NCBI RefSeq assembly: GCF_016756745.1
Contig: NZ_JAESIH010000045.1
Coordinates: 1 to 54,171 of the forward strand
DNA: 54,171 nucleotides
Source: Aminivibrio sp.
GTDB lineage: Bacteria > Synergistota > Synergistia > Synergistales > Aminobacteriaceae
Reading direction: 5' to 3'
Shown here: piece after piece, positions 18,648 through 30,454 of the stretch
Layout: each line of letters opens with the position of its first letter
How positions within the stretch are numbered: the stretch's first letter is position 1
Position numbers and translations under genes: made by a program
The notes under the pieces: generated by a model
Database searches by the model: none
The model's input: only the letters and a program-made list of their open reading frames with translations
Told to the model about the DNA's origin: nothing

Positions 18648-20888
18648 CTATTTTTTCTGCCGGGCGATGAAGGCCTCCAGTTTTCCGACATGCTCCTCCA
18701 CAACCTTGTTGTGGTAAATGTCAAGCCCTTCCTTGTATTTCTTCAGGGCCTCGCCGTACTTCTTCGCGTTCTGGAGCTGCCCCGCCTGCTTCCAGATTTC
18801 CTCGGCACTGGCCTTCGCCTTGGGCATGAATGCCTCGAGCTTGGCGACATGATCGCTTACCGTTCTGTCAGGGGAGAGCTCCAGCCCCTTGCGGTACAGG
18901 GCCAGGGCCTCCTCGTACTTTTTCGCCTGCTGGAGGTCGCCCGCCTCCTTCCAGAGGGTTTCAGCCTGCCGCCGGGCATCTCTGCCGGTTACGTCTTCGA
19001 AGGGAGCAGTCTCCTTCGGTAGAGCGGAGACAGAGGCTGCGACCATACGTTCGAGCCCCTCGGCGTAGTCTTTCACCTCGGGGTCATCGTGGAAGGCGAG
19101 GCTCTCCCTGTATTTTGCCGCAGCACCGGCCCGGTTCCCCTCCTTTTCGAGGGCCGCCGCCTCCTCGCGCAGCCGGAGAGCTTCCTTCAGACGGGCAAGT
19201 TCGTTTTCAAGGCTTTTTTCATCGGGATCGGTTTGCGAAACTTCAGGAGGAGTCTCCTCCCCCTGAGGAGGAACATCCGAGGGAGGCTGGACGGACGGGG
19301 TTTCCTGTCTCGGCTGTTCAGGAACTCTCGCCGGCCATGCATTTTTCATCCTGTGCACCGACGGCACTCCGGGCGCGTATCCGCTGGGACGGTCCTTGAC
19401 GAGCACATCGCCGTCGGGCAGAACGGCCATACCCTCCATTATGCCGAAAGTCCTCCTGACAGGAAGAACCTGGAGAAACCTGCCGTCCGGCCCATAGATC
19501 CATATTCCTTCCTCGGAATCGTCGTAGGCGTACACCCGTCCTTCCGCGTCCGCCCCAAGGTACTCCACCTGGAAATAGATCTCTTTCTCCCCGGGGAGGG
19601 CCGGCAGGTCGCTCCCCCACAGGGGCCATTCTTTGAGAAGGTTCCCTTCCAGGTCATACACCGAGAATATGTCGGCTCGGTCGTTATCCGCCTGATGTTC
19701 GGCTATAACAAGTTTTTCCCCGGGAAGGAGCGCCATGGGACCTTCGATCTTCATATCCCGGGAGAGAAGCAGCTCCCCTTCAGGTGAAAAAACCAGGAGT
19801 CTCGGCTTTCCGTCCTTGCCTTCTTTCGATCCTGCGGCGACAATTTTTCCCGTTTCCGTAACGGCGAGGAACCATGGTTTATATAGACCCTTCTCCCCGA
19901 GAGTTTTCTTGTCCGCCTTTATCTTTCCCAGGAATTCTCCTTTTCGGGAAAAACGCTGGATATTCGCGTCCACAGAATACCCCTCGTCGGCCACGTAGAG
20001 GGACCCGTCCGGGGCAAAGGCAATGACCGTCGGCCAGGCGAATGTTCCGTCCTCACCCTTTCCCTTCTCTCCCCATTCGTCCAGAAGGGTTCCCGAAGCA
20101 TCGAAAAGGCGGATCCTTTTGCCGAACCTGTCGAGGAGAGCCACCGTTCCGTCGGCTGCAACGAAAGGCCCCTCGGAATGGCGGAAACTCGTATCGGTCG
20201 CACCGAAGAGGAACGAAAGACTCTTCTCCAGCGGGGGGACGCCTTCCCGGGCCGAGGAGAGCATGGTTTTTATCACGTCCCGGTACTTCTCGATGGACGC
20301 CGACTTGCCGGCGATCATCACGAGAATGTGTTTGCCCTCCGCATCGGGCTCCTTGGCGACCACGAGGTTCATCTCCGCTTTCTGCGTCTTCCCCCGCATC
20401 TCGACGTCGGCGGAAAGGGAATAGTATACCGCCGGGCGGGACCCGATGGTGATTTCTTCTTCTTTAGACGTGAAATTTTTCGTTTTATCCTTCCCCAGGC
20501 TTCGTTCCATTTCCTCGAAAAAGGCCCTGTATCCGCCGCCCTTCCGGGCCTTCTGCCGGGTCACGCTGATAGCCACCAGGGGAAGGTCCGCCATGGAGGG
20601 GTCGTCCATGGCATCGGGATGGGCCCCGGTGTAGAAGCCCATATCTTCCCCGTCCATCATGGGCTTCCAGTCCGAAGGAACGGTGATGTAAAAGGGAGGA
20701 ACCCACCGGAGAGCCATTCCCGGGGGGACATCCCCAGGGGAAGGAACTTCGGCTGCCGGCGCCGGAAGAACCCCGGCAAGGAGCGGCACAAGAACAATAG
20801 AGACCATGAGAATTCCCGGGCGGAAGGCCACCCGGCCTTTTTTCATCCTGAAGAGACAGTGAAAAACGGGTGAAAGAAAACAGCTCAT
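18648..20888 (-). CDS. Secreted multi-domain protein: PsbP-like part, NHL propeller, TPR-like repeats
   Basis: A 746-residue protein with an N-terminal signal/anchor region (hydrophobic run LMVSIVLVPLLAGVLPAPAA, around residues 30-50). Next come a PsbP/DcrB-like section (WVPPFYITVPSDWKPM...), a beta-propeller of NHL type (about 215-530, for example FAPDGSLYVADEGYS), a Pro/Glu-rich linker, and at least three 45-residue helical repeats of TPR character ending near AEEIWKQAGQLQNAKKYGEA. The start at 20888 follows AAGGAGG. It is the last gene of a seven-gene minus-strand cluster. No function is known. It probably acts as a periplasmic scaffold; this is inference. Confidence 0.75.
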   Translation of the reverse strand: MSCFLSPVFHCLFRMKKGRVAFRPGILMVSIVLVPLLAGVLPAPAAEVPSPGDVPPGMALRWVPPFYITVPSDWKPMMDGEDMGFYTGAHPDAMDDPSMADLPLVAISVTRQKARKGGGYRAFFEEMERSLGKDKTKNFTSKEEEITIGSRPAVYYSLSADVEMRGKTQKAEMNLVVAKEPDAEGKHILVMIAGKSASIEKYRDVIKTMLSSAREGVPPLEKSLSFLFGATDTSFRHSEGPFVAADGTVALLDRFGKRIRLFDASGTLLDEWGEKGKGEDGTFAWPTVIAFAPDGSLYVADEGYSVDANIQRFSRKGEFLGKIKADKKTLGEKGLYKPWFLAVTETGKIVAAGSKEGKDGKPRLLVFSPEGELLLSRDMKIEGPMALLPGEKLVIAEHQADNDRADIFSVYDLEGNLLKEWPLWGSDLPALPGEKEIYFQVEYLGADAEGRVYAYDDSEEGIWIYGPDGRFLQVLPVRRTFGIMEGMAVLPDGDVLVKDRPSGYAPGVPSVHRMKNAWPARVPEQPRQETPSVQPPSDVPPQGEETPPEVSQTDPDEKSLENELARLKEALRLREEAAALEKEGNRAGAAAKYRESLAFHDDPEVKDYAEGLERMVAASVSALPKETAPFEDVTGRDARRQAETLWKEAGDLQQAKKYEEALALYRKGLELSPDRTVSDHVAKLEAFMPKAKASAEEIWKQAGQLQNAKKYGEALKKYKEGLDIYHNKVVEEHVGKLEAFIARQKK

Positions 20889-20937
20889 CGATAACTTCCT
20901 CCTTCTCAGCTTGATATACATTCCCCGGGCACCTCCG

Positions 20938-23658
20938 TCACTTCACCGGGCAGAAGTACACACCCACAGGGAACGATACGGACATATTCTCGTACCTGAG
21001 GGGAGCGCCGTCGTTGCCCCAGGGTTCACCGGTTCTTTTGAAAAACTCCAGGGAGTAGAACACCACCAGGTCCATCGCGAAGGACTCGGGGGTCTTTCCC
21101 TTTTCCGGCGTCCAGGAAACGGAGGCGGATCCGCCGTTTCCCTGGACAATGGGGCTTGACTGGGCCCCCGTGGTGAAGAACCAGTGCCGGACAGCTATCC
21201 GGGCCTCCACCTGTTCAGGCTGCTCCTTTTCGTCCCGCATGTACAGGCGGATCGGGGGTATGGCGCCGATGGAGACGGCGAGCGACAGGGTTACGGGGCG
21301 GCCTTCATGCTGCCGGCCGCTTCCCAGTACCGGTCGCCTCAGGACCGGTTCGTCCCGGCCGCCAAGTCCCGCCAGGGCAAGGCTCTGCTTCAGTGCCTCG
21401 GCCATCTGGGCGTCGCTCAGACTGATGCCCATTTTCGCCATTTCCTTTGCCATCTGTTCCTTGATGTAGTCCCCGGCATTTGCAACGCCTTCGGTAAGCT
21501 CGGCCAGCCGCTTGCCCTCCGGACTGTCCGGGGGGATCTCGCCGTCGATGCCCGAAATCGACGGTGAAAGGACCAGGGGGACGGTGGGAAGGACAACCGT
21601 CGGGTCATTCCCGAGAGGAGAACCGGTCATCCAGAAGGTGCGGTTCTCGAAGAAGTGCCGTTTTTCCCCCTTGAGCACCTTGACGGAGACGGAGTCCTCC
21701 GCGAGGACCCTGCCTTTTTCGTCCAGAAGCCGTACGGCCGGGCTGAAGGAATCCCCCGGCTTGAGGCCGGTATAACGGTGCCGCATGACGGAATTCTCTC
21801 CCGGCCCTTTCCGGTCCTCCACAACCGGGGTTCCGTCGCCGAAATTCCACTCGAACAGGTGGGGTTTCTTCGGTTCGGCCGCCGCCTCGAATTCGTGCTC
21901 CGTCTCAGAGGCATCGTCGATCAGCTCCAGCACAAGGGTACGGGGAGGAAGGATCGTAACCCCGACTTCTTCCTCTTTCCAGGCATCGCTTTCGAAGACC
22001 CGGCTTCCCGCCTCTATCCTCAAAAAAGCCTCCTGTCCGGGCTTGATCTCGTAGAAAAGTTCCTCCTCGCTGAGAGGCCCTGCGGTTCCCGCTGCAAACA
22101 GCCGGACGGGAGCTTCCTCCATTTTTCCGCCCGCAGTCTCGATCTGCTTCGGCTCGCCCTTCACGAAGAGGATTTTTCTCTCGTAGACCGTTTTGTCCTT
22201 CTCCCGCACCACGAGCAGGGCAGGACCGGAATATTGAATGGTCAGACCTTCGGCTTTCCAGGCGAGATCCTTCTCGACGTGGTGCTTCATGGAAGCCGTC
22301 ACCTCAATGATCCGTACCGGGGTGGCCCGGGGATCGACTCCCTCCATCTCGGACTCCATCTCCTCGAATTCAGCCTTCAGCTCCAGGGTGGGGTAGAAAA
22401 GATTCATTAGGTCGGCGCAGGCATGGATGGCCACGGGCAGGAGAATTCTCCCCTGCTCTGCGGCGAAGGCGTGGGGAATCTGGAAGGGACCGAGCCTTCT
22501 CAATACGGCTGCCGTGGCTCTTCCCGCTTTTTCCTTGGCTCCTTCGAAATCCGACAGGAAGGACTGATTGGGGTCGAACCAGTGGAAACTGAGACGGTCC
22601 TGGATCATGGCCGCCCGCACTCCGTCGAACACGCCGTAGAATCTCCGGACTTCCCTTTCCGTGGAAAATCCCGGGATCTTCTTTTTTTCCACCGCCAGGT
22701 CCCTCAGCTGGGGGGAGGGGTATCCCTTCTGCCGGTTGTTCGGCGGGACATTCGATTTCTTGTCGTAGATAGTGTCCAGAGAATAGAACGTCCTGTTCAC
22801 GAAGGACGCCACCTGGCGGAAAAGTTCCTCCGGGGTCCGGAGCCTTCCTCCCGCGCTTGCGATAAAGGGGCGGATTCTCGAATCGACGAAGGGGGCCGCC
22901 GCCGCCCGCCGGACATGCTCGCTGAAGGTGGCCGCTTCTATGGGCTCGTCGGCCGGGTGGGAGTCGTTTCGGACATGGGCAGGCTGGGTCATGTCCCCGA
23001 GCATGTGCATCGATTCCCCCAGGGCCCGGTATGCCCTGGCGAGCTGCAGGCTCCTGAGGTCGTCATGGTCTTTCGGGGCAAGGCTCAGGGACGTCTTGAA
23101 ATGGAGGGAATTCAAAGCCGGGGGAATGGGGAGGTCGTCCCTGACCTCGAGGGCCGCCTTGTAGGCCGACAGGGCAACGAAAAAGCTGAAGGGGTTGTCG
23201 GGATGACTGAGCCCCCATGTTCTCGCATCGATGGCGGGGCTGTCGTACAGACCGTGAGCTTCGCTCTGGTCTGTCAGGTACGACACCCCGGACAGGGCGA
23301 GGGGGTCGTAGAAATGCCTCACGGAAGAGTACAGGTTAGGCTCGTCCGCCCAGTCTCCTCCGTTGATGATCCACGACTGGGCGGAAAGGTTCGCCTCCGC
23401 GGAAACAAAATCTGACGGAAGCAGGGAAGAGCTGGTCACGGCAAGGCCCCGGAGGGGCTCCGAGAGCCCTTTTCCGGAGAAGGGGCCCATGGTGAATTTT
23501 TCCTTGCCCCCTGCCTGGGAGAGAAAGAGCTTCACCGCTTCCAGGTTGATCTGGCGGTGGGGATGCTGGCTCCAGCCATGGGCAGGCGTACCGCAAAAAA
23601 CGAGGACAGCGGTCAGCGCGAGTATGCTTTTTCTAAAAAAACCTTCGATGGAAATCAT
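20938..23658 (-). CDS. Secreted P1-nuclease/phospholipase-C-like zinc protein with PKD domain
   Basis: A 906-residue protein whose signal peptide ends PAHG, exposing W29-S30. A mature N-terminal Trp is a zinc ligand in zinc-dependent phospholipase C and S1/P1 nucleases. Further ligand motifs of that fold follow: GDWADEPN (about 101-108), HFYDP (115-119) and GESMHMLGDMTQPAHVRNDS (214-233), with the His/Asp/His pattern. A PKD-type domain (HLFEWNFGDGTPV, about residues 570-660) and a long unassigned C-terminal region follow, about three times the length of a simple phospholipase C. GAAGGAGGG precedes the ATG. Whether it cleaves phospholipid or nucleic acid cannot be decided. Confidence 0.75.
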   Translation of the reverse strand: MISIEGFFRKSILALTAVLVFCGTPAHGWSQHPHRQINLEAVKLFLSQAGGKEKFTMGPFSGKGLSEPLRGLAVTSSSLLPSDFVSAEANLSAQSWIINGGDWADEPNLYSSVRHFYDPLALSGVSYLTDQSEAHGLYDSPAIDARTWGLSHPDNPFSFFVALSAYKAALEVRDDLPIPPALNSLHFKTSLSLAPKDHDDLRSLQLARAYRALGESMHMLGDMTQPAHVRNDSHPADEPIEAATFSEHVRRAAAAPFVDSRIRPFIASAGGRLRTPEELFRQVASFVNRTFYSLDTIYDKKSNVPPNNRQKGYPSPQLRDLAVEKKKIPGFSTEREVRRFYGVFDGVRAAMIQDRLSFHWFDPNQSFLSDFEGAKEKAGRATAAVLRRLGPFQIPHAFAAEQGRILLPVAIHACADLMNLFYPTLELKAEFEEMESEMEGVDPRATPVRIIEVTASMKHHVEKDLAWKAEGLTIQYSGPALLVVREKDKTVYERKILFVKGEPKQIETAGGKMEEAPVRLFAAGTAGPLSEEELFYEIKPGQEAFLRIEAGSRVFESDAWKEEEVGVTILPPRTLVLELIDDASETEHEFEAAAEPKKPHLFEWNFGDGTPVVEDRKGPGENSVMRHRYTGLKPGDSFSPAVRLLDEKGRVLAEDSVSVKVLKGEKRHFFENRTFWMTGSPLGNDPTVVLPTVPLVLSPSISGIDGEIPPDSPEGKRLAELTEGVANAGDYIKEQMAKEMAKMGISLSDAQMAEALKQSLALAGLGGRDEPVLRRPVLGSGRQHEGRPVTLSLAVSIGAIPPIRLYMRDEKEQPEQVEARIAVRHWFFTTGAQSSPIVQGNGGSASVSWTPEKGKTPESFAMDLVVFYSLEFFKRTGEPWGNDGAPLRYENMSVSFPVGVYFCPVK

Positions 23659-23682
23659 CTCTCCGTCCCTCCTTCCGCGGGG

Positions 23683-24477
23683 TTAAAAGTCGAAAAGGAC
23701 CCATTGTCCGTCCACCTTGACCCACTGCACGTAGAAGGTGAATCCCCCTACGTCCACAGCGTACTCGGAGGTCCGCATCGTGCTCTTGCTTCGGGGATCG
23801 GCATTCTCCGGCGAGCTCAGAAAGCTCATCTCCGCTCCATCGAGGAGTTCCGCGAATGAGGGCATGGCCTCCGGCTTCTGCCCGAAAAGGGCGGCGAAGA
23901 CCTCCCGGCGGCTTTCGTCGACACACCGGACCGCCCCTTCGACATTTCCTTCCTTCAGGGCCTTCCGAAATCGTCCGAAGGTCTCCTCAATGGCCTTCTT
24001 TTCCTCCCCGAGGTCGGGATAGATTCTCCAGTCGGCCTTGTCCTGCCCGGCGGAATCCCTCCTTGCCGTTGAAACCGCCGGAGGCGGCGAAGCAGCCTCT
24101 TTTCCGGTTTTCCCTGCCGCAAGAAGGCGTTCGAGAGAGGCTATCCGGTCTTTCAGAGGTTTGAGGTCGGGGCGGAAGGAGAGAGCTTGTGCCTCCAGCA
24201 GCGGGTCGGGGTAGAGGACGAAACTTTTCCAGTAGGCCTCCATTGCCCCCGGGACATTACCCTCCGCCTCCATGCGACGGCCCTCGTTCCGGAGGGAAAG
24301 GGCCTGCTCCAGCACGGCTATCCGGCGGTGAAGCTCTTCGTTGGAAGGGGGTCCCACGGCTTCCGATCCTCCCGGCTTCACGGCGGAAAGGCACGCAACC
24401 AGGCCTGCCAGGACAAGGAAACGACAGGCCCGGCGGGCAGATGCTTCCTCAAAAATTCGGCGCAGTACAGTTTTCAT
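23683..24477 (-). CDS. Exported protein with helical repeat and NTF2-like C-terminal domain
   Basis: A 264-residue protein starting at 24477 (AAGGCGGTG five bases upstream) with a signal peptide (FLVLAGLVACLSAVKPGG region; a lipobox Cys is possible at LVAC). A TPR-like pair (ALSLRNEGRRMEAEGNVPGA...) resembles the repeats in the 18648 protein. The C-terminal about 115 residues, from EEKKAIEETFGRFRKALKEG to the end, look like an NTF2/SnoaL-like alpha+beta cone and finish with VQWVKVDGQWVLFDF. Catalytic residues are not evident. It ends 24 bases before the phospholipase-like gene starts. Confidence 0.65.
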   Translation of the reverse strand: MKTVLRRIFEEASARRACRFLVLAGLVACLSAVKPGGSEAVGPPSNEELHRRIAVLEQALSLRNEGRRMEAEGNVPGAMEAYWKSFVLYPDPLLEAQALSFRPDLKPLKDRIASLERLLAAGKTGKEAASPPPAVSTARRDSAGQDKADWRIYPDLGEEKKAIEETFGRFRKALKEGNVEGAVRCVDESRREVFAALFGQKPEAMPSFAELLDGAEMSFLSSPENADPRSKSTMRTSEYAVDVGGFTFYVQWVKVDGQWVLFDF

Positions 24478-24502
24478 TTTTTCACCGCCTTTATAAAAAA
24501 AC

Positions 24503-25717
24503 TCAGATCTCTTCTTCCGGTCCGGGTCCGCCCGTTGTCCCTTCCGCAGCCCGCTGAAGCTCTTCCGACAGGGGCACTTTGTGAAGGCGGAGGGCATCGA
24601 AAAGCCTCCCGGCCCCCGGAATGTTCGAACACAGGAACCGCTCGGATCCGCCGTTTCTGAAAAAGAACTCGATCCCCCAGTCCGTTCTCCCGGACAGCAG
24701 GAGCGCCTGCCCCATCAGGCGCCAGTCGGCGAGGCCCGCGATGAACATGACGGTCCGCAGCCACTTCGGAGGCCTGTAGTCCACGAAACCGGCGGAAGCG
24801 ATGTCGGAGAAGGCGATGCGGCGGTCCTTTCCGAGGACGGTCAGGAACAGTTCACCGGGGGTAATTTGCAGGGCGAAGGAAGCGTACTTCGCCGTCCGGT
24901 ACAGGATAGAGGCGAAGATCAGCCCTAAGGCCCAGAAGACCAGGGTGAACCAGGCGCTGCCGTTCCCGAAATCAAGGAATGCGGCCTGGTCGAAGATATG
25001 AACGCCCAAAACCAGGGGAAGCCCGAAGAAGAACCCCGTCATGGCGAAGGAGAGAACATCGGGAAGGATGACCGCGGACCACCTGGGGTACAGGATAGCG
25101 CCGGCCGGAAATTTTCTCCGGGGGAGGAACAGGTAGAACAGCGTTCCCAGGAGAAGGGGCCACGGGGCGAGGGAACGGTACGGCCGGACCAGTCTCTGGG
25201 GGGCGCCGTTGTCCAGGGCCGTGCCCGGGCCCTCCGCGGTCAGGGCGAGAAACCTGGGGCCGTCGGAGAAAGAGTACTTCAGGTAGGCAAAGGTCTCTCC
25301 CTTTTCGGCCATTCCGGGAAAAAGAGAAGTGATGGGCTCCTCCTCTTCGTGGAAATAGAGGCTTTTCCTGGAGGTCCCCCCGGCTTCCCTCCAGGCCGTC
25401 GGGGGGGACCCGGGCGGCGCTGCGGCCCCGGCAAAAATCCCGGGCCAGAGTTCACCTTCCACGGTCAGGAGGCGTTTGTCCGTTTTTGAATCGATAAAGC
25501 CGGCGATGGTACGGAAGGGCGTGACCGACCGGATAAACCGGCCTCCCGCCGCCTGGGCACCGTACAGCCCCTGGTTCGGGCTGTACTGGGAACGGTACTC
25601 CTTCCCCATGTCCACGGAATACAGGCGCACAAGGACACCGTTCCTCGGGCCAAAAAACATTACGATGGCAAGGAAGAGGAGGCACAGCGTTCCGAGCCTT
25701 CTGTACAGCTCTTTCAT
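24503..25717 (-). CDS. Membrane protein of unknown function with possible PH-like domain
   Basis: A 404-residue protein. An N-terminal helix (about 8-25) leads to an extracytoplasmic part of about 160 residues. Three to four helices follow (about 190-285, for example PLLLGTLFYLFLP and WFTLVFWALGLIFASILY), then a cytoplasmic region (YASFALQITPGELFLTVLGK to LFDALRLHKVPL) shaped like a bacterial PH/DUF304 domain. The assignment is tentative. The gene sits between the exported NTF2-like protein and the BNR propeller protein in one tight cluster. Its ribosome binding site is weak. Confidence 0.6.
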   Translation of the reverse strand: MKELYRRLGTLCLLFLAIVMFFGPRNGVLVRLYSVDMGKEYRSQYSPNQGLYGAQAAGGRFIRSVTPFRTIAGFIDSKTDKRLLTVEGELWPGIFAGAAAPPGSPPTAWREAGGTSRKSLYFHEEEEPITSLFPGMAEKGETFAYLKYSFSDGPRFLALTAEGPGTALDNGAPQRLVRPYRSLAPWPLLLGTLFYLFLPRRKFPAGAILYPRWSAVILPDVLSFAMTGFFFGLPLVLGVHIFDQAAFLDFGNGSAWFTLVFWALGLIFASILYRTAKYASFALQITPGELFLTVLGKDRRIAFSDIASAGFVDYRPPKWLRTVMFIAGLADWRLMGQALLLSGRTDWGIEFFFRNGGSERFLCSNIPGAGRLFDALRLHKVPLSEELQRAAEGTTGGPGPEEEI

Positions 25718-25748
25718 TGGATCCGTCCCTTTTCTTTCCCCGCACCCT

Positions 25749-27614
25749 TCACGGCAGCTCCACTTCCGTCCAAGGGGCCTCGCCGCCTGCCCGCCGGAAA
25801 AACCCTGCGGGGGTTCCGATCAGCGTTCCGCCGCCGGGAATCGGAAGGCAGGCCAGAACACGGGTGTTGGACAGGTTTGTCTCCCGAAGGGAAAAGCGCC
25901 CCGGAGACTCCCCGGGAACAAGCCGCACCACCCTCTCCCGGGCGACGGCGAGAAGCCCCTTCCCTTCGGCGGGGAAAATTTCCGTCAGATATTCGAAAGG
26001 CGACCAGCTGAAACCGTCAATCTTCGCCTCTTCCGTCTCCCCTTCAGGAAGGGAGACATTCCACAGCCCGGTCCTTGACACTCCCCAGAGCTTCCCGTCA
26101 TTGTCGAAGGCCAGGGAGCTGATCCCGCGGATCACGTAAATATTCCTCCAGGTCAGGCCTCCGTCCAGGGAGACGGAAAACCCCCTGTCCGTACCGGCAG
26201 CCATGACCGTCCCGTCGGGTGACTGGAGGGAAAAAACATACTCCCCGTCCACATCCTCCACCTTCTGCCATTCATAGCCGTCCGGAGACCGGTACAGCCC
26301 CTCTCCCGCAGTTCCCGCGAGAAATCCTCCCGCCGACGTCCATGCCAGGGACGTGAAAGCCCTTTCGGCGGGAAGGGGTATTTCCGTCCAGGAAAGGCCT
26401 CCGTCCCGGGAAAGAAGGATGTTTCTGTCAGTCCCTGCGAACAGGTCCCCGCCGGGAACCGCTGCGAGAAAGACCGCCCCGCTTCCCGCGCTTCCCCGGC
26501 GGACCCAGCGGTTTCCTCCGTCAGAAGAGGCGAAAAGCCCTCCGGACCGGGTAAGGGCGAGAAGACGGCCGCCTTCACGGGCCAGTCCCACCACGGGATC
26601 GGAGGGAAGAAGCCCGGTGACCCCGAAACTCTCCCGGTCTGCCAGGAAGAGACTGCCCGCGGAGGTTCCCGCGAGGACACCCTTTTTGAAAGGAACGAGG
26701 ACGGTGACAGACATCTCTTTTTCGTCCCCGACAGGAAAGGAGCTCCAGGTTCTTCCGTCGTCGGAGGAGACGAAAAGCCCCTGCTTGTGGGTCCCGGCCC
26801 AGAGCACGCCCTGTTCGTCAGCGGCAAGGGCCTGGACGGTACACAGGGGCGGAAGACCTTCTCCTCCTGGCTGCCACTCTCCCCCCTCCTCCTTCCGGAA
26901 GACTCCGCCTTCGAGGGTTCCGGTGAAGACCGTCCCGGTGACGGAACTGCGGGCGAGGACGAGTGGGAAGATGTTCGCCGGCCCAGGTTTATCAAGGCTC
27001 CAGGTCCTTCCTCCGTCACCGGAGAAGAGGATACCCCTCCCGAAAACGGCGGCCCGGAGATGGCCCTTTCCTTCGTCTTCAAGGTCCGCCACAAGGAAAG
27101 TACCATCCTCGCCCTCCGCCTTCGCCATCACGAAATTTTCCGCGGCCGTCCAGTGGATGCCCGAGTCCCAGAAAACAGCGACGCAGGTACCCCCTGAGGA
27201 GGGGAGAAATTGTTTGACCCTGCCGCCGCCCTTCATGGATCTCCAGGAATTTCCGCCGTCGGGGGACGTGAGAAGTTCGTCGTAGGCCGCGAGAAAGAGG
27301 GAGCCTTCAGAAGAAACTGCCAGGGAAAAGAAATGGGAAGAAGGAAGACTGCCGCCCAGGTTTTTCCAGCGCCTGCCTCCGTTGTCGGAAACAAAGAGAC
27401 CTCCCTTTTCCGAGGTGAGAATGTAGAGTTTATCCCCAGGACCCCGAACCCCGTCGATGAACGGAGCCCACGACTGTTCGGCGGCCGCGGCGGGCGAAAG
27501 GAACAGGCCGGACAGGGCCAGGAGGGCCGGCAGTAAAAATGCGTTCCGGGATCTCTTCGGGGAAGGTCCATGACCGGTGCCTCCGCTTCGAAAAAGCTGT
27601 CCGCCGCGGATCAT
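25749..27614 (-). CDS. Secreted BNR-repeat beta-propeller protein (sortilin/YCF48-like)
   Basis: A 621-residue protein with a signal peptide (hydrophobic LLPALLALSGLFLSPAAAA near residues 27-46). About eight repeats of the type S-x-DGG-xx-W are spread over the whole mature part, for example SDNGGRRWKNLGG, SGDGGRTWSLDK, SRDGGLSWTEIP and SLDGGLTWRNI. These are BNR/Asp-box repeats of a beta-propeller, as in sortilin-like and photosystem-assembly YCF48-like proteins. Sialidase catalytic residues were not seen, so a binding or scaffold role is more likely. RBS AGGAGG overlaps the end of the preceding DUF1294 gene. Confidence 0.75.
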   Translation of the reverse strand: MIRGGQLFRSGGTGHGPSPKRSRNAFLLPALLALSGLFLSPAAAAEQSWAPFIDGVRGPGDKLYILTSEKGGLFVSDNGGRRWKNLGGSLPSSHFFSLAVSSEGSLFLAAYDELLTSPDGGNSWRSMKGGGRVKQFLPSSGGTCVAVFWDSGIHWTAAENFVMAKAEGEDGTFLVADLEDEGKGHLRAAVFGRGILFSGDGGRTWSLDKPGPANIFPLVLARSSVTGTVFTGTLEGGVFRKEEGGEWQPGGEGLPPLCTVQALAADEQGVLWAGTHKQGLFVSSDDGRTWSSFPVGDEKEMSVTVLVPFKKGVLAGTSAGSLFLADRESFGVTGLLPSDPVVGLAREGGRLLALTRSGGLFASSDGGNRWVRRGSAGSGAVFLAAVPGGDLFAGTDRNILLSRDGGLSWTEIPLPAERAFTSLAWTSAGGFLAGTAGEGLYRSPDGYEWQKVEDVDGEYVFSLQSPDGTVMAAGTDRGFSVSLDGGLTWRNIYVIRGISSLAFDNDGKLWGVSRTGLWNVSLPEGETEEAKIDGFSWSPFEYLTEIFPAEGKGLLAVARERVVRLVPGESPGRFSLRETNLSNTRVLACLPIPGGGTLIGTPAGFFRRAGGEAPWTEVELP

Positions 27615-27621
27615 TCTCCCT

Positions 27622-27834
27622 TCACCTCCTCAAGGAAAACCAGGGGTGCCGCATCTTGTGGCGGAACAGCTTCATTTCCGGGAATGTACCGCCTCTTCCG
27701 CCCATCAGGGCGGCGAGAGGAAGGATGTTCTCAGGTACGCGCCGGACCGACGCTTTTGCCGTCAGCTTGTCCCATCCCATGAGGACAAAGGCGGGCACAT
27801 TCATTCCGAGAAATGCGGTAAAAAATGCCGTCAT
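27622..27834 (-). CDS. DUF1294-family small membrane protein, shortened C-terminus
   Basis: A 70-residue protein with the DUF1294 signature: GWDKLTAKASVRRVPENILP, then MGGRGGTFPEMKLFRHKMRH. Full-length members (about 85-95 residues) have a second membrane helix after the FRHK-x-RH motif. Here the protein stops at WFSLRR, and its last codons double as the Shine-Dalgarno of the next gene, so the tail seems to have been lost. The N-terminal helix is present. RBS AAGGAG lies 11 bases upstream. It may be a decaying gene. Confidence 0.6.
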   Translation of the reverse strand: MTAFFTAFLGMNVPAFVLMGWDKLTAKASVRRVPENILPLAALMGGRGGTFPEMKLFRHKMRHPWFSLRR

Positions 27835-27874
27835 TTTCAGCGGCGCTCCTTCCCGGGAACTGCGGCCACGGAGG

Positions 27875-28390
27875 CTACTCCCCTTCCTTCCGGTGGACCG
27901 ATATGTACTTTACGATCTCGTCAGGGTTGGAAAAGCCCTTGATCTCGATCTCGTAACTGTCGGTTCCGGCAGTTGCGATCTTGATCGTCCCGAGATTGAA
28001 GATCCGCTCGAAAATGTTCTTCGTCAGCTCCGTGGTTTTGATGTCCTGAATGAAAATTTTCTCCATGGAGGTGAACAGGATGCCCTGGGTAAAGACAATA
28101 TAATCAATATGAAGCTTGAGTTTCTTGCTCCTGCGCCGGATTTCCTGGATCCCCACGTTGGCCGCCGTCAGCAGGAGGCCCCACATGAGAAGCGTCCATT
28201 TTCCCACGTTCAGCCCGATCCCGGTGAGCATGTTCGGGAAAATGCTCACAAGGATAAAGGGCGCAAGAAACACCAGGGCCGGAACAACAAGAGGGCAAAG
28301 GAAACCCGCTATCGAGGGGGAAAGAATGTAATCAAACTCCACCGCGTCTCCGCCCTCCGATTTTGTCTCGCTCATGAACGTCTTCGCCAT
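27875..28390 (-). CDS. bPH2 (DUF304/YdbS-like) membrane protein
   Basis: A 171-residue protein with two adjacent membrane helices (about 25-50 and 62-82, for example PLVVPALVFLAPFILVSIF). A bacterial PH domain follows, in which IDYIVFTQGILF and FIQDIKTTELTKNIFERIF, then GTIKIATAG, match the DUF304/bPH2 pattern. It is a membrane-associated protein of unknown role. It is the first gene of the minus-strand cluster 28390-18648. The ATG at 28390 is taken; another start at MSETKS (about five codons in) is possible. Confidence 0.8.
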   Translation of the reverse strand: MAKTFMSETKSEGGDAVEFDYILSPSIAGFLCPLVVPALVFLAPFILVSIFPNMLTGIGLNVGKWTLLMWGLLLTAANVGIQEIRRRSKKLKLHIDYIVFTQGILFTSMEKIFIQDIKTTELTKNIFERIFNLGTIKIATAGTDSYEIEIKGFSNPDEIVKYISVHRKEGE

Positions 28391-28630: not shown

Positions 28631-29644
28631 ATGACTGCAAAAAAGAGGTTTTCCCGGTTTGTTTCAGTGCTTCTTGCCGCGGCGGCACCGCTGTGTGCAT
28701 CTCCTGCCCCTGCTGCGGAGACACTCAACGTGTACACTATCTGGTCCGAACGGTATGCGACGGAAATCTTCGATGCCTTTACGCGGGAGACGGGCGTGAA
28801 GGTGAATTTCCTCCGTTTTCCTTCCGGCGAGGTGCTGGCACGGCTTATAGCGGAGAAAAACAATCCGCAGGTGGATGTTTTTTTCGGCGGCATAGCCGAT
28901 GCCTTCGTCGCGGGGAAAAAAGAGGGCATATTCGATCCCTACGTGCCCAGGGGAGCCGAGGAAATCCCTTCCAGGTTCCGTGATCCCGAAGGATTCTGGA
29001 CAGGGGTTGCCGTCAATCCGCTGTGCTTCATGTTCAACGGAAACTTTTTGAAGAAGCATGGACTGCAGGCTCCGGCATCATGGGCGGAGCTCCTGAACCC
29101 CGTATTTAAAAACGGGCTCATCATGGCGGATGCCAGGACATCGGGAACGGCCGTCTCCCGCCTTTTCAGCCTCGTGCTGGCCATGGGCGAGGATGAAGCC
29201 TACGCATACCAGAAAAAACTGGATTCCAACGTGCAACAGTACACCAAGAGCGGGGCCGGCGGAGCGTTGCCCATCTCCAGGGAACAGGCCGCAGGCGGCA
29301 TCTTCTTCCTTGTGGATGCCCTCGAAATGCAACAGATGGGCTACGACGTAGTCATCAGCTATCCTGCTGAAGGTGTCGTCTACGGTGTTGAAGCGATGGG
29401 GCTCATAAAGGGCGCAAAAAACCCCGGGCTCGGGAAAAAATTTCTCGACTGGGCTGCTGGCCCTGCAATGCAGCGTATCTACGAGGAAAAGAAAATACAC
29501 CTCATTCCCACCCATCCGAAGGTGAAGCTCCGTAACCCGTCCCTCGACATGATCGGCGTGAAGCTGCTCGATCTTGACATCGAATGGTCAGGGGAACACA
29601 GGATGCGCCTGGTGGACCGCTGGGTGAACGAAATCGTTCGGTAA
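28631..29644 (+). CDS. Orphan periplasmic solute-binding protein (AfuA/2-AEP-like family)
   Basis: A 337-residue protein with a signal peptide ending near SPAPAAETL. The mature protein matches ferric iron/2-aminoethylphosphonate-type binding proteins: LNVYTIWSERYATEIFDAF, PQVDVFFGGIADAFVAGKK, WTGVAVNPLCFMFN, and SGTAVSRLFSLVLAMGEDEA. GGGAGG precedes the ATG at 28631. No permease or ATPase gene is next to it, so it must work with transport partners encoded elsewhere, or act as a sensor. A strong terminator follows at 29741-29782. Confidence 0.85.
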   Translation: MTAKKRFSRFVSVLLAAAAPLCASPAPAAETLNVYTIWSERYATEIFDAFTRETGVKVNFLRFPSGEVLARLIAEKNNPQVDVFFGGIADAFVAGKKEGIFDPYVPRGAEEIPSRFRDPEGFWTGVAVNPLCFMFNGNFLKKHGLQAPASWAELLNPVFKNGLIMADARTSGTAVSRLFSLVLAMGEDEAYAYQKKLDSNVQQYTKSGAGGALPISREQAAGGIFFLVDALEMQQMGYDVVISYPAEGVVYGVEAMGLIKGAKNPGLGKKFLDWAAGPAMQRIYEEKKIHLIPTHPKVKLRNPSLDMIGVKLLDLDIEWSGEHRMRLVDRWVNEIVR

Positions 29645-29740
29645 CCCCCGGTCTCCACGCCGCACAGGACCGTGTCCGCTCTGAAAAAAGAAGGAGCCTG
29701 CGAATCTGCCAAGGCGTTTATTTAACGTGTTGGTAAAAAT

Positions 29741-29782
29741 AAAAAGAAGCCACTGATTGCAGTTCATCAGTGGCTTCTTTTT
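29741..29782. terminator. Bidirectional intrinsic terminator
   Basis: AAAAAGAAGCCACTGAT pairs perfectly with ATCAGTGGCTTCTTTTT (17 bp, eight-base loop), flanked by A-rich and T-rich runs, so it can act in both directions. It separates the convergent solute-binding-protein and creatininase-family genes. Confidence 0.9.
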
Positions 29783-29802
29783 CTTCCTGGATTCCCGCTC
29801 AC

Positions 29803-30454
29803 TCATAACGAGTCTGGAGGTGAGACATCCAGCGCAGCATAGATTTGTTTCTGTTTCTCCAAAACTTCGCCGACCCACAGCATTGACTTTCTTCGGCTCC
29901 GTTCTGATCAGTCTGTCCGTCCTGACAAGATCCGGCCGCAGGTACAGGAACAGGGATGTTCCAGCCTCGCTCGCATGGCCGTGGGACATGATGCCGTCGG
30001 AGTCAAGTATCTTCTCTTCCGAACAGAGGGGCTGAATGAACCTCCACCAGTCAAACAGGCAGCAAAGAGCACCCTGCTCGATTTTGAGCTTCGCGGCTAC
30101 TTGGCTGATAAGGGGCACATTCCCGACATGGGGATTCAAAAAGCAGAATCGTTTCATTCCGTGTTTCACGAGACTCATGCAGATATCCTCAAGATAGTCC
30201 CTGAAACTGTCCGGGCGGGCCGTCACAGCCCCCGGCCCCCAGGAGAAAAGAGAATCCCCCACAGGAACCGTTGGCCCTACCAGCCATCCCATCCTGTCGC
30301 CCAGGCGAAATGCCATTTCTTCGGCGATAATGGTGTCCGCCCCCACCGGAAGGTGAGGGCCCCAGATCTCGTACGCCCCGCTCGGGATGATAACGGCATC
30401 GTTTTTCCCCATGTACTCCTGAAAATCCAGTGTGTTCATTTCGAGCAGCTTCAT
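29803..30454 (-). pseudogene. Creatininase-family amidohydrolase with a probable frameshift
   Basis: From ATG 30454 (GGGAGGA six bases upstream) the frame gives a creatininase-type protein: PSGAYEIWGPHLPVGADTII near residue 23, FLNPHVGNVP, and SHGHASEAGTSLFLYLRPDL near residue 158, covering most of the metal-site region. After VNAVG (about 29865) the frame loses similarity and runs through the terminator into antisense of the next gene. One frame over, the DNA reads GEVLEKQKQIYAALDVSPPD and stops at 29803, a sensible family C-terminus just before the terminator. A single-base frameshift or sequencing error is likely. The first metal-site His of the common HGxHLP motif is Trp here, as in some subfamilies. 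Confidence 0.65.

Follow-up and report, generated by a model that had tools for sequence, protein, structure and literature searches.

The window analysed here is a stretch of 54,171 nucleotides from Aminivibrio sp. (contig NZ_JAESIH010000045.1). Its minus strand carries, between positions 18648 and 28390, seven consecutive open reading frames, g01 to g07, which are separated by gaps of 40, 7, 31, 25, 24 and 16 bases; RBS-like purine-rich stretches precede most of the starts. An ArsR-type metalloregulator lies 128 bases downstream of g07 and is followed by a heavy-metal P-type ATPase. A consensus scan of the region detected no promoter-like sites and no excess of terminator-like sites. Tight spacing of co-directional genes is, by itself, ordinary. 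The genes are listed below, together with the parts of g06, which runs from a signal peptide through a catalytic head and two Ig-like domains to a C-terminal module.

28390-27875, minus strand: g01, bPH_2 membrane protein, 171 aa (bPH_2, E 5e-11)
27834-27622, minus strand: g02, small DUF1294 membrane protein, 70 aa (DUF1294, E 3.5e-16)
27614-25749, minus strand: g03, exported BNR/Asp-box propeller, 621 aa (BNR/Sortilin-type, E 2.6e-9)
25717-24503, minus strand: g04, weakly PH-like membrane protein, 404 aa (bPH_10, E 0.061, below cut-off)
24477-23683, minus strand: g05, exported TPR-like and weakly NTF2-like protein, 264 aa, internal ATG start (profile matches)
23658-20938, minus strand: g06, predicted exported P1/PLC-like zinc protein, 906 aa (motif)
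22390..23574, minus strand: predicted catalytic head of g06, mature residues 1-395, Trp1 being residue 29 (motif, alignment)
21667..22392, minus strand: two predicted Ig-like beta-sandwich domains of g06, the second PKD-like, residues ~423-664 (model)
20941..21672, minus strand: C-terminal module of g06, 244 aa, predicted Ig-like sandwich with a helical insertion (model, alignment)
20921-18648, minus strand: g07, exported NHL-TPR protein, 757 aa (profile matches)

The same-strand arrangement had been noticed in a sequence-only reading of this DNA, and it is real. That reading had also called the products mostly exported, which is a fair description: signal-peptide-like N-termini are found on g03, g05, g06 and g07, and g01, g02 and g04 have the appearance of membrane proteins. 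Its domain labels fared unevenly. The bPH_2, DUF1294 and BNR/Sortilin-type labels are solid and the NHL and TPR/MIT-like ones are supported, whereas the PH label of g04 and the NTF2 label of g05 are weak, the latter resting on a DUF4878 match below the cut-off (E 0.085 for the whole protein, 0.013 for the domain alone), and the P1/PLC-like g06 has no Pfam enzyme match. In g07, an N-terminal domain (~aa 66-225) that has no significant match in Pfam is followed by an NHL-type propeller (~230-530; Pfam 7e-5, NCBIfam ScyF-like NHL 4.9e-9), a proline-rich linker and TPR-like repeats (~571-757).

Gene order in relatives divides the run into separate modules. The whole run, together with its non-cluster flanks, is confined to the genus, where it occurs in four of five genomes, being complete in G001 and G002 and spread over two contig ends in G004. 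The flanking SBP, arsR and heavy-metal ATPase genes are also conserved within the genus, so that gene order at this level is uninformative on function. In G003, of the same genus, the sole g03-g04 copy found adjoins other genes, and g01 and g07 lie at the ends of other contigs, which are short. The g03-g04 pair is also found at another locus in G015, G016, G018 and G019; in the last two, of the next genus (g8), the two genes are mutually adjacent on other contigs than g05-g06-g07, and G016 has them in the presence of neither g05 nor g06. Strong orthologues of g01 are restricted to the genus and only weak relatives exist outside it. By comparison, g05-g06-g07 stay together in G018 and G019, with flanks that differ from those of the window, and are kept in G079, where g06 is split over two contig ends. 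The conserved core across genera is therefore g05-g06-g07, g03-g04 is a separate pair, and the run as a whole is a genus-level concatenation of such modules rather than a seven-part machine. Neighbourhood conservation thus holds across genera for the core and fails outside the genus for g01 and g03-g04; with the genes scattered in relatives, a seven-gene functional unit was rejected on synteny. Searches of plasmids, phages and viral contigs returned no relatives.

Copies of the g02-type DUF1294 gene are also present downstream of g07 in G018 and G019. The gene follows g07 directly in G019 (L013:15403-15606), and in G018 it is found near g07 together with a relative of the window's gene at 29588-30454 (L014:15539-16294 and L014:20017-20223), hinting at a shared wider neighbourhood. 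In both genomes, the contig that carries g03-g04 holds a second locus (G018:C45, ~16.6-27.3 kb, L111; G019:C44, L113), which encodes a small TPR protein, another that combines a g07-like N-terminus with TPRs, and an exported protein of ~2834 aa.

The TPR-like modules shared by two of the proteins had been taken as a sign of joint assembly in the envelope. This argument was rejected because such repeats are common throughout the family. Matches to g07 occur in 72 of 83 family genomes; most of them involve nothing but the TPR stretch, and they lie largely within large, unrelated proteins. The window's own genome encodes, elsewhere (G000:C72, L140:2338-10950), an exported protein of 2870 residues with the same repeats.

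A better indication of joint action comes from the tail of g06. The two Ig-like domains before it were taken from the full-length AlphaFold model, which was used for residues 423-664 only. The module itself was modelled separately from 12 sequences (pLDDT 79.9, pTM 0.72) and is predicted to form an Ig-like sandwich with a helical insertion. Nothing stands out in a fold search against the PDB: the best Foldseek E of 0.014 and the best Z of 7.6 are within the range of unrelated models, and for this reason the module is called only Ig-like here. Proteins in G013, G099, G100, G101 and G102 have C-terminal parts that are 38-52% identical to the last 244 residues of g06. The available part of the G102 protein (from residue 453) is of the P1/PLC type, its head lying beyond the contig start. 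The other four, from three other genera, carry the same module on a different head, which has the motif HExxH-x17-E in all four. Besides the module, the G099, G100 and G101 proteins consist of a stretch of TPRs, a region that looks beta-rich and the HExxH head; the G013 protein is a fragment, open at the contig end, with the same head. The likeness of this head to the gluzincin metallopeptidases (HExxH...E) lies in the motif alone, and no Pfam peptidase match was obtained for it.

The distribution of g07 follows that of the tail. A g07 profile built mostly without the TPRs was used to survey 188 Synergistota genomes, of which 12 have a strong tail module, 13 a strong g07 and 11 both. Fisher tests of this co-occurrence gave 5e-15 by genome and 1e-7 by genus, and pairwise identities of g07 and the module correlate at 0.94, all three values being uncorrected for relatedness. 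The sample amounts to 12-13 draft genomes from ~7 genera, and several of the cases depend on where contigs end. Ten genomes have a contig that runs past the tail, and in each of them g07 comes next, with either type of head. There are three exceptions to the joint occurrence: the contig ends in the tail in G101 and in g07 in G003, and in G016 a shorter g07-like gene without TPRs occurs without any module, beside a gene for a beta-gamma-crystallin-like protein. Both the module gene and g07 stop near contig ends in G100. At L115:6077-13140, the G016 gene is flanked on one side by the gene of the beta-gamma-crystallin-like repeat protein and on the other by two genes whose N-terminal domains look like PsbP/DcrB. 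Taken together, adjacency and co-occurrence of the module and g07 under two different heads are better evidence for joint action than the TPRs.

The same pattern might arise if g05, g06 and g07 were a transcription unit that is co-inherited without physical contact, made up of an exported hydrolase and two independent envelope proteins. One co-inherited operon would also produce matching g07 and tail distances, and in the trees of both g07 and the module G013 and G099 group apart from the window's genus, which is consistent with joint inheritance. The G016 gene likewise suits this explanation, as a g07-like protein retained without the module means that g07 is not exclusive to it. What speaks against it is that g07 stays with the tail when the enzyme head differs, which points to the tail, and not the enzyme, as the thing that g07 serves. 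We regard co-inheritance without contact as a rather unlikely account, although it is the strongest of the alternatives.

The partner of the head appears to be g05. In every case where the contig extends far enough, a g05-like gene immediately precedes that of the P1/PLC-type head; this also holds for a Desulfobacteraceae MAG, in which the head has a MORN-like tail in place of the module (L016:11914-12466). No g07 was found in the Desulfobacteraceae genome or in a small MAG labelled Nealsonbacteria. The latter has a P1/PLC-type gene split over two frames (L017:4887-7141); this gene resembles the Desulfobacteraceae one, so the contig may be misbinned. We read these observations as g05 going with the head and g07 with the tail.

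The enzymatic assignment of g06 relies on a motif in the head. In an alignment of eight homologues, the others being 57-89% identical to the head in the window, residues W1, H6, D77, H87, H190, D194 and H200 are invariant, with D77 in GDWADEP, H87 in RHFYD and the last three in HMLxDMTQPAH. A signal-peptidase site following the (-3,-1) rule (A/V-x-A/G) is predicted immediately before the Trp in all eight. Such a mature N-terminal Trp, freed by signal cleavage, is shared with the zinc-dependent phospholipase C and S1-P1 nuclease superfamily (PF00882, PF02265), as are a His five residues on and then an Asp, a His and the pattern HxxxDxxxxxH; we take the remaining His/Asp motif of g06 to resemble that of these trinuclear-zinc enzymes. 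In S1 nuclease, the main chain of the N-terminal Trp is a zinc ligand (PMC5201275), and an extra residue before W1 abolishes the activity of the Listeria PC-PLC (PMC10576769). H206, E210 and H220 are invariant as well, and either H206/E210 or H220 are candidates for binding the remaining zinc. The family profiles miss g06, with no match to PF00882 or PF02265 at E<=1, and sequence profiles from Pfam, NCBIfam and the PDB all fail to recognise the head. A PF02265 search found nothing in the window's own genome and, over the 188 genomes, only sub-threshold fragments with internal stop codons in three other genomes. The superfamily has an all-alpha fold; the full-length AlphaFold model of g06 is poor (pLDDT 46), with the head mostly at 25-50. 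Because of this model and the failed profiles, g06 is likened to the superfamily in its working and is not filed as a proven member. Zinc binding and catalysis in the manner of a trinuclear-zinc phosphodiesterase thus remain predictions from sequence.

It is conceivable, but improbable, that the head has the P1/PLC motif and is nevertheless a catalytically different protein, or an inactive one that binds zinc or serves in adhesion. Its divergence from all curated families, the ambiguity of the remaining zinc ligands and the fusion to Ig-like domains, of a kind also present in adhesins, are all compatible with this; the core ligands and the site that would expose Trp1 are, however, invariant from Synergistota to the Desulfobacteraceae MAG. 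Least probable is the original proposal that all seven products form one envelope complex, which is already largely refuted: the single strand, the gaps of 7-40 bases and the order kept in most of the genus would suit it, but that order is shared with the non-cluster flanks, g01 and g03-g04 are unlinked from the core outside the genus, and G003 has g03-g04 beside other genes within it.

On balance, we lean towards g05-g06-g07 as an exported zinc phosphodiesterase system within a composite run, in which the tail of g06 is docked to g07. The g06 protein would be exported by Sec and cut by signal peptidase I directly before Trp1, and the free N-terminal Trp would build a trinuclear zinc site with the conserved His and Asp residues. 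The enzyme, periplasmic or exposed on the cell surface, might then hydrolyse phosphodiesters in either nucleic acids or the head groups of phospholipids. The two Ig-like domains would act as a stalk, and the C-terminal Ig-like module may dock the enzyme to the exported propeller/TPR protein g07, by which it would be localised or organised. A role as a head-specific accessory, such as a chaperone, an inhibitor or a ligand-binding subunit, is suggested for g05 by the pairing of its weakly NTF2-like domain with the head even in genomes that have no docking module. In other Synergistota, the module and g07 would serve the gluzincin-like head, which has its own N-terminal TPRs.

Compared with the known phospholipases C and S1-P1 nucleases, g06 is much larger and carries, in addition to the Ig-like pair, a C-terminal module that is undescribed; it is also encoded together with g05 and g07. 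Unrelated heads that end in a common C-terminal module, for which there is a dedicated partner, recall the C-terminal domain (CTD) of T9SS cargo and the cellulosomal dockerin. The likeness is one of logic only: here the module has 244 residues and a predicted Ig-like fold with a helical insertion, and the partner is of the NHL/TPR type. g06 matches neither a T9SS CTD nor a dockerin profile, and an NCBIfam scan of it gives no family. A literature search returned nothing on this g05-g06-g07 system, and exported enzymes of Synergistota have, to our knowledge, been little studied. We put forward only tentatively, and with less confidence than the system itself, that Synergistota possess an undescribed docking scheme for exoenzymes in which an Ig-like module is placed on interchangeable heads, either a zinc phosphodiesterase or a gluzincin-like peptidase, and a dedicated NHL-propeller/TPR partner is encoded next to it. 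An unexplained cluster of seven genes has in this way become a testable unit of three, and the shared tail module and its partner could serve to recognise other exported enzymes of this phylum.
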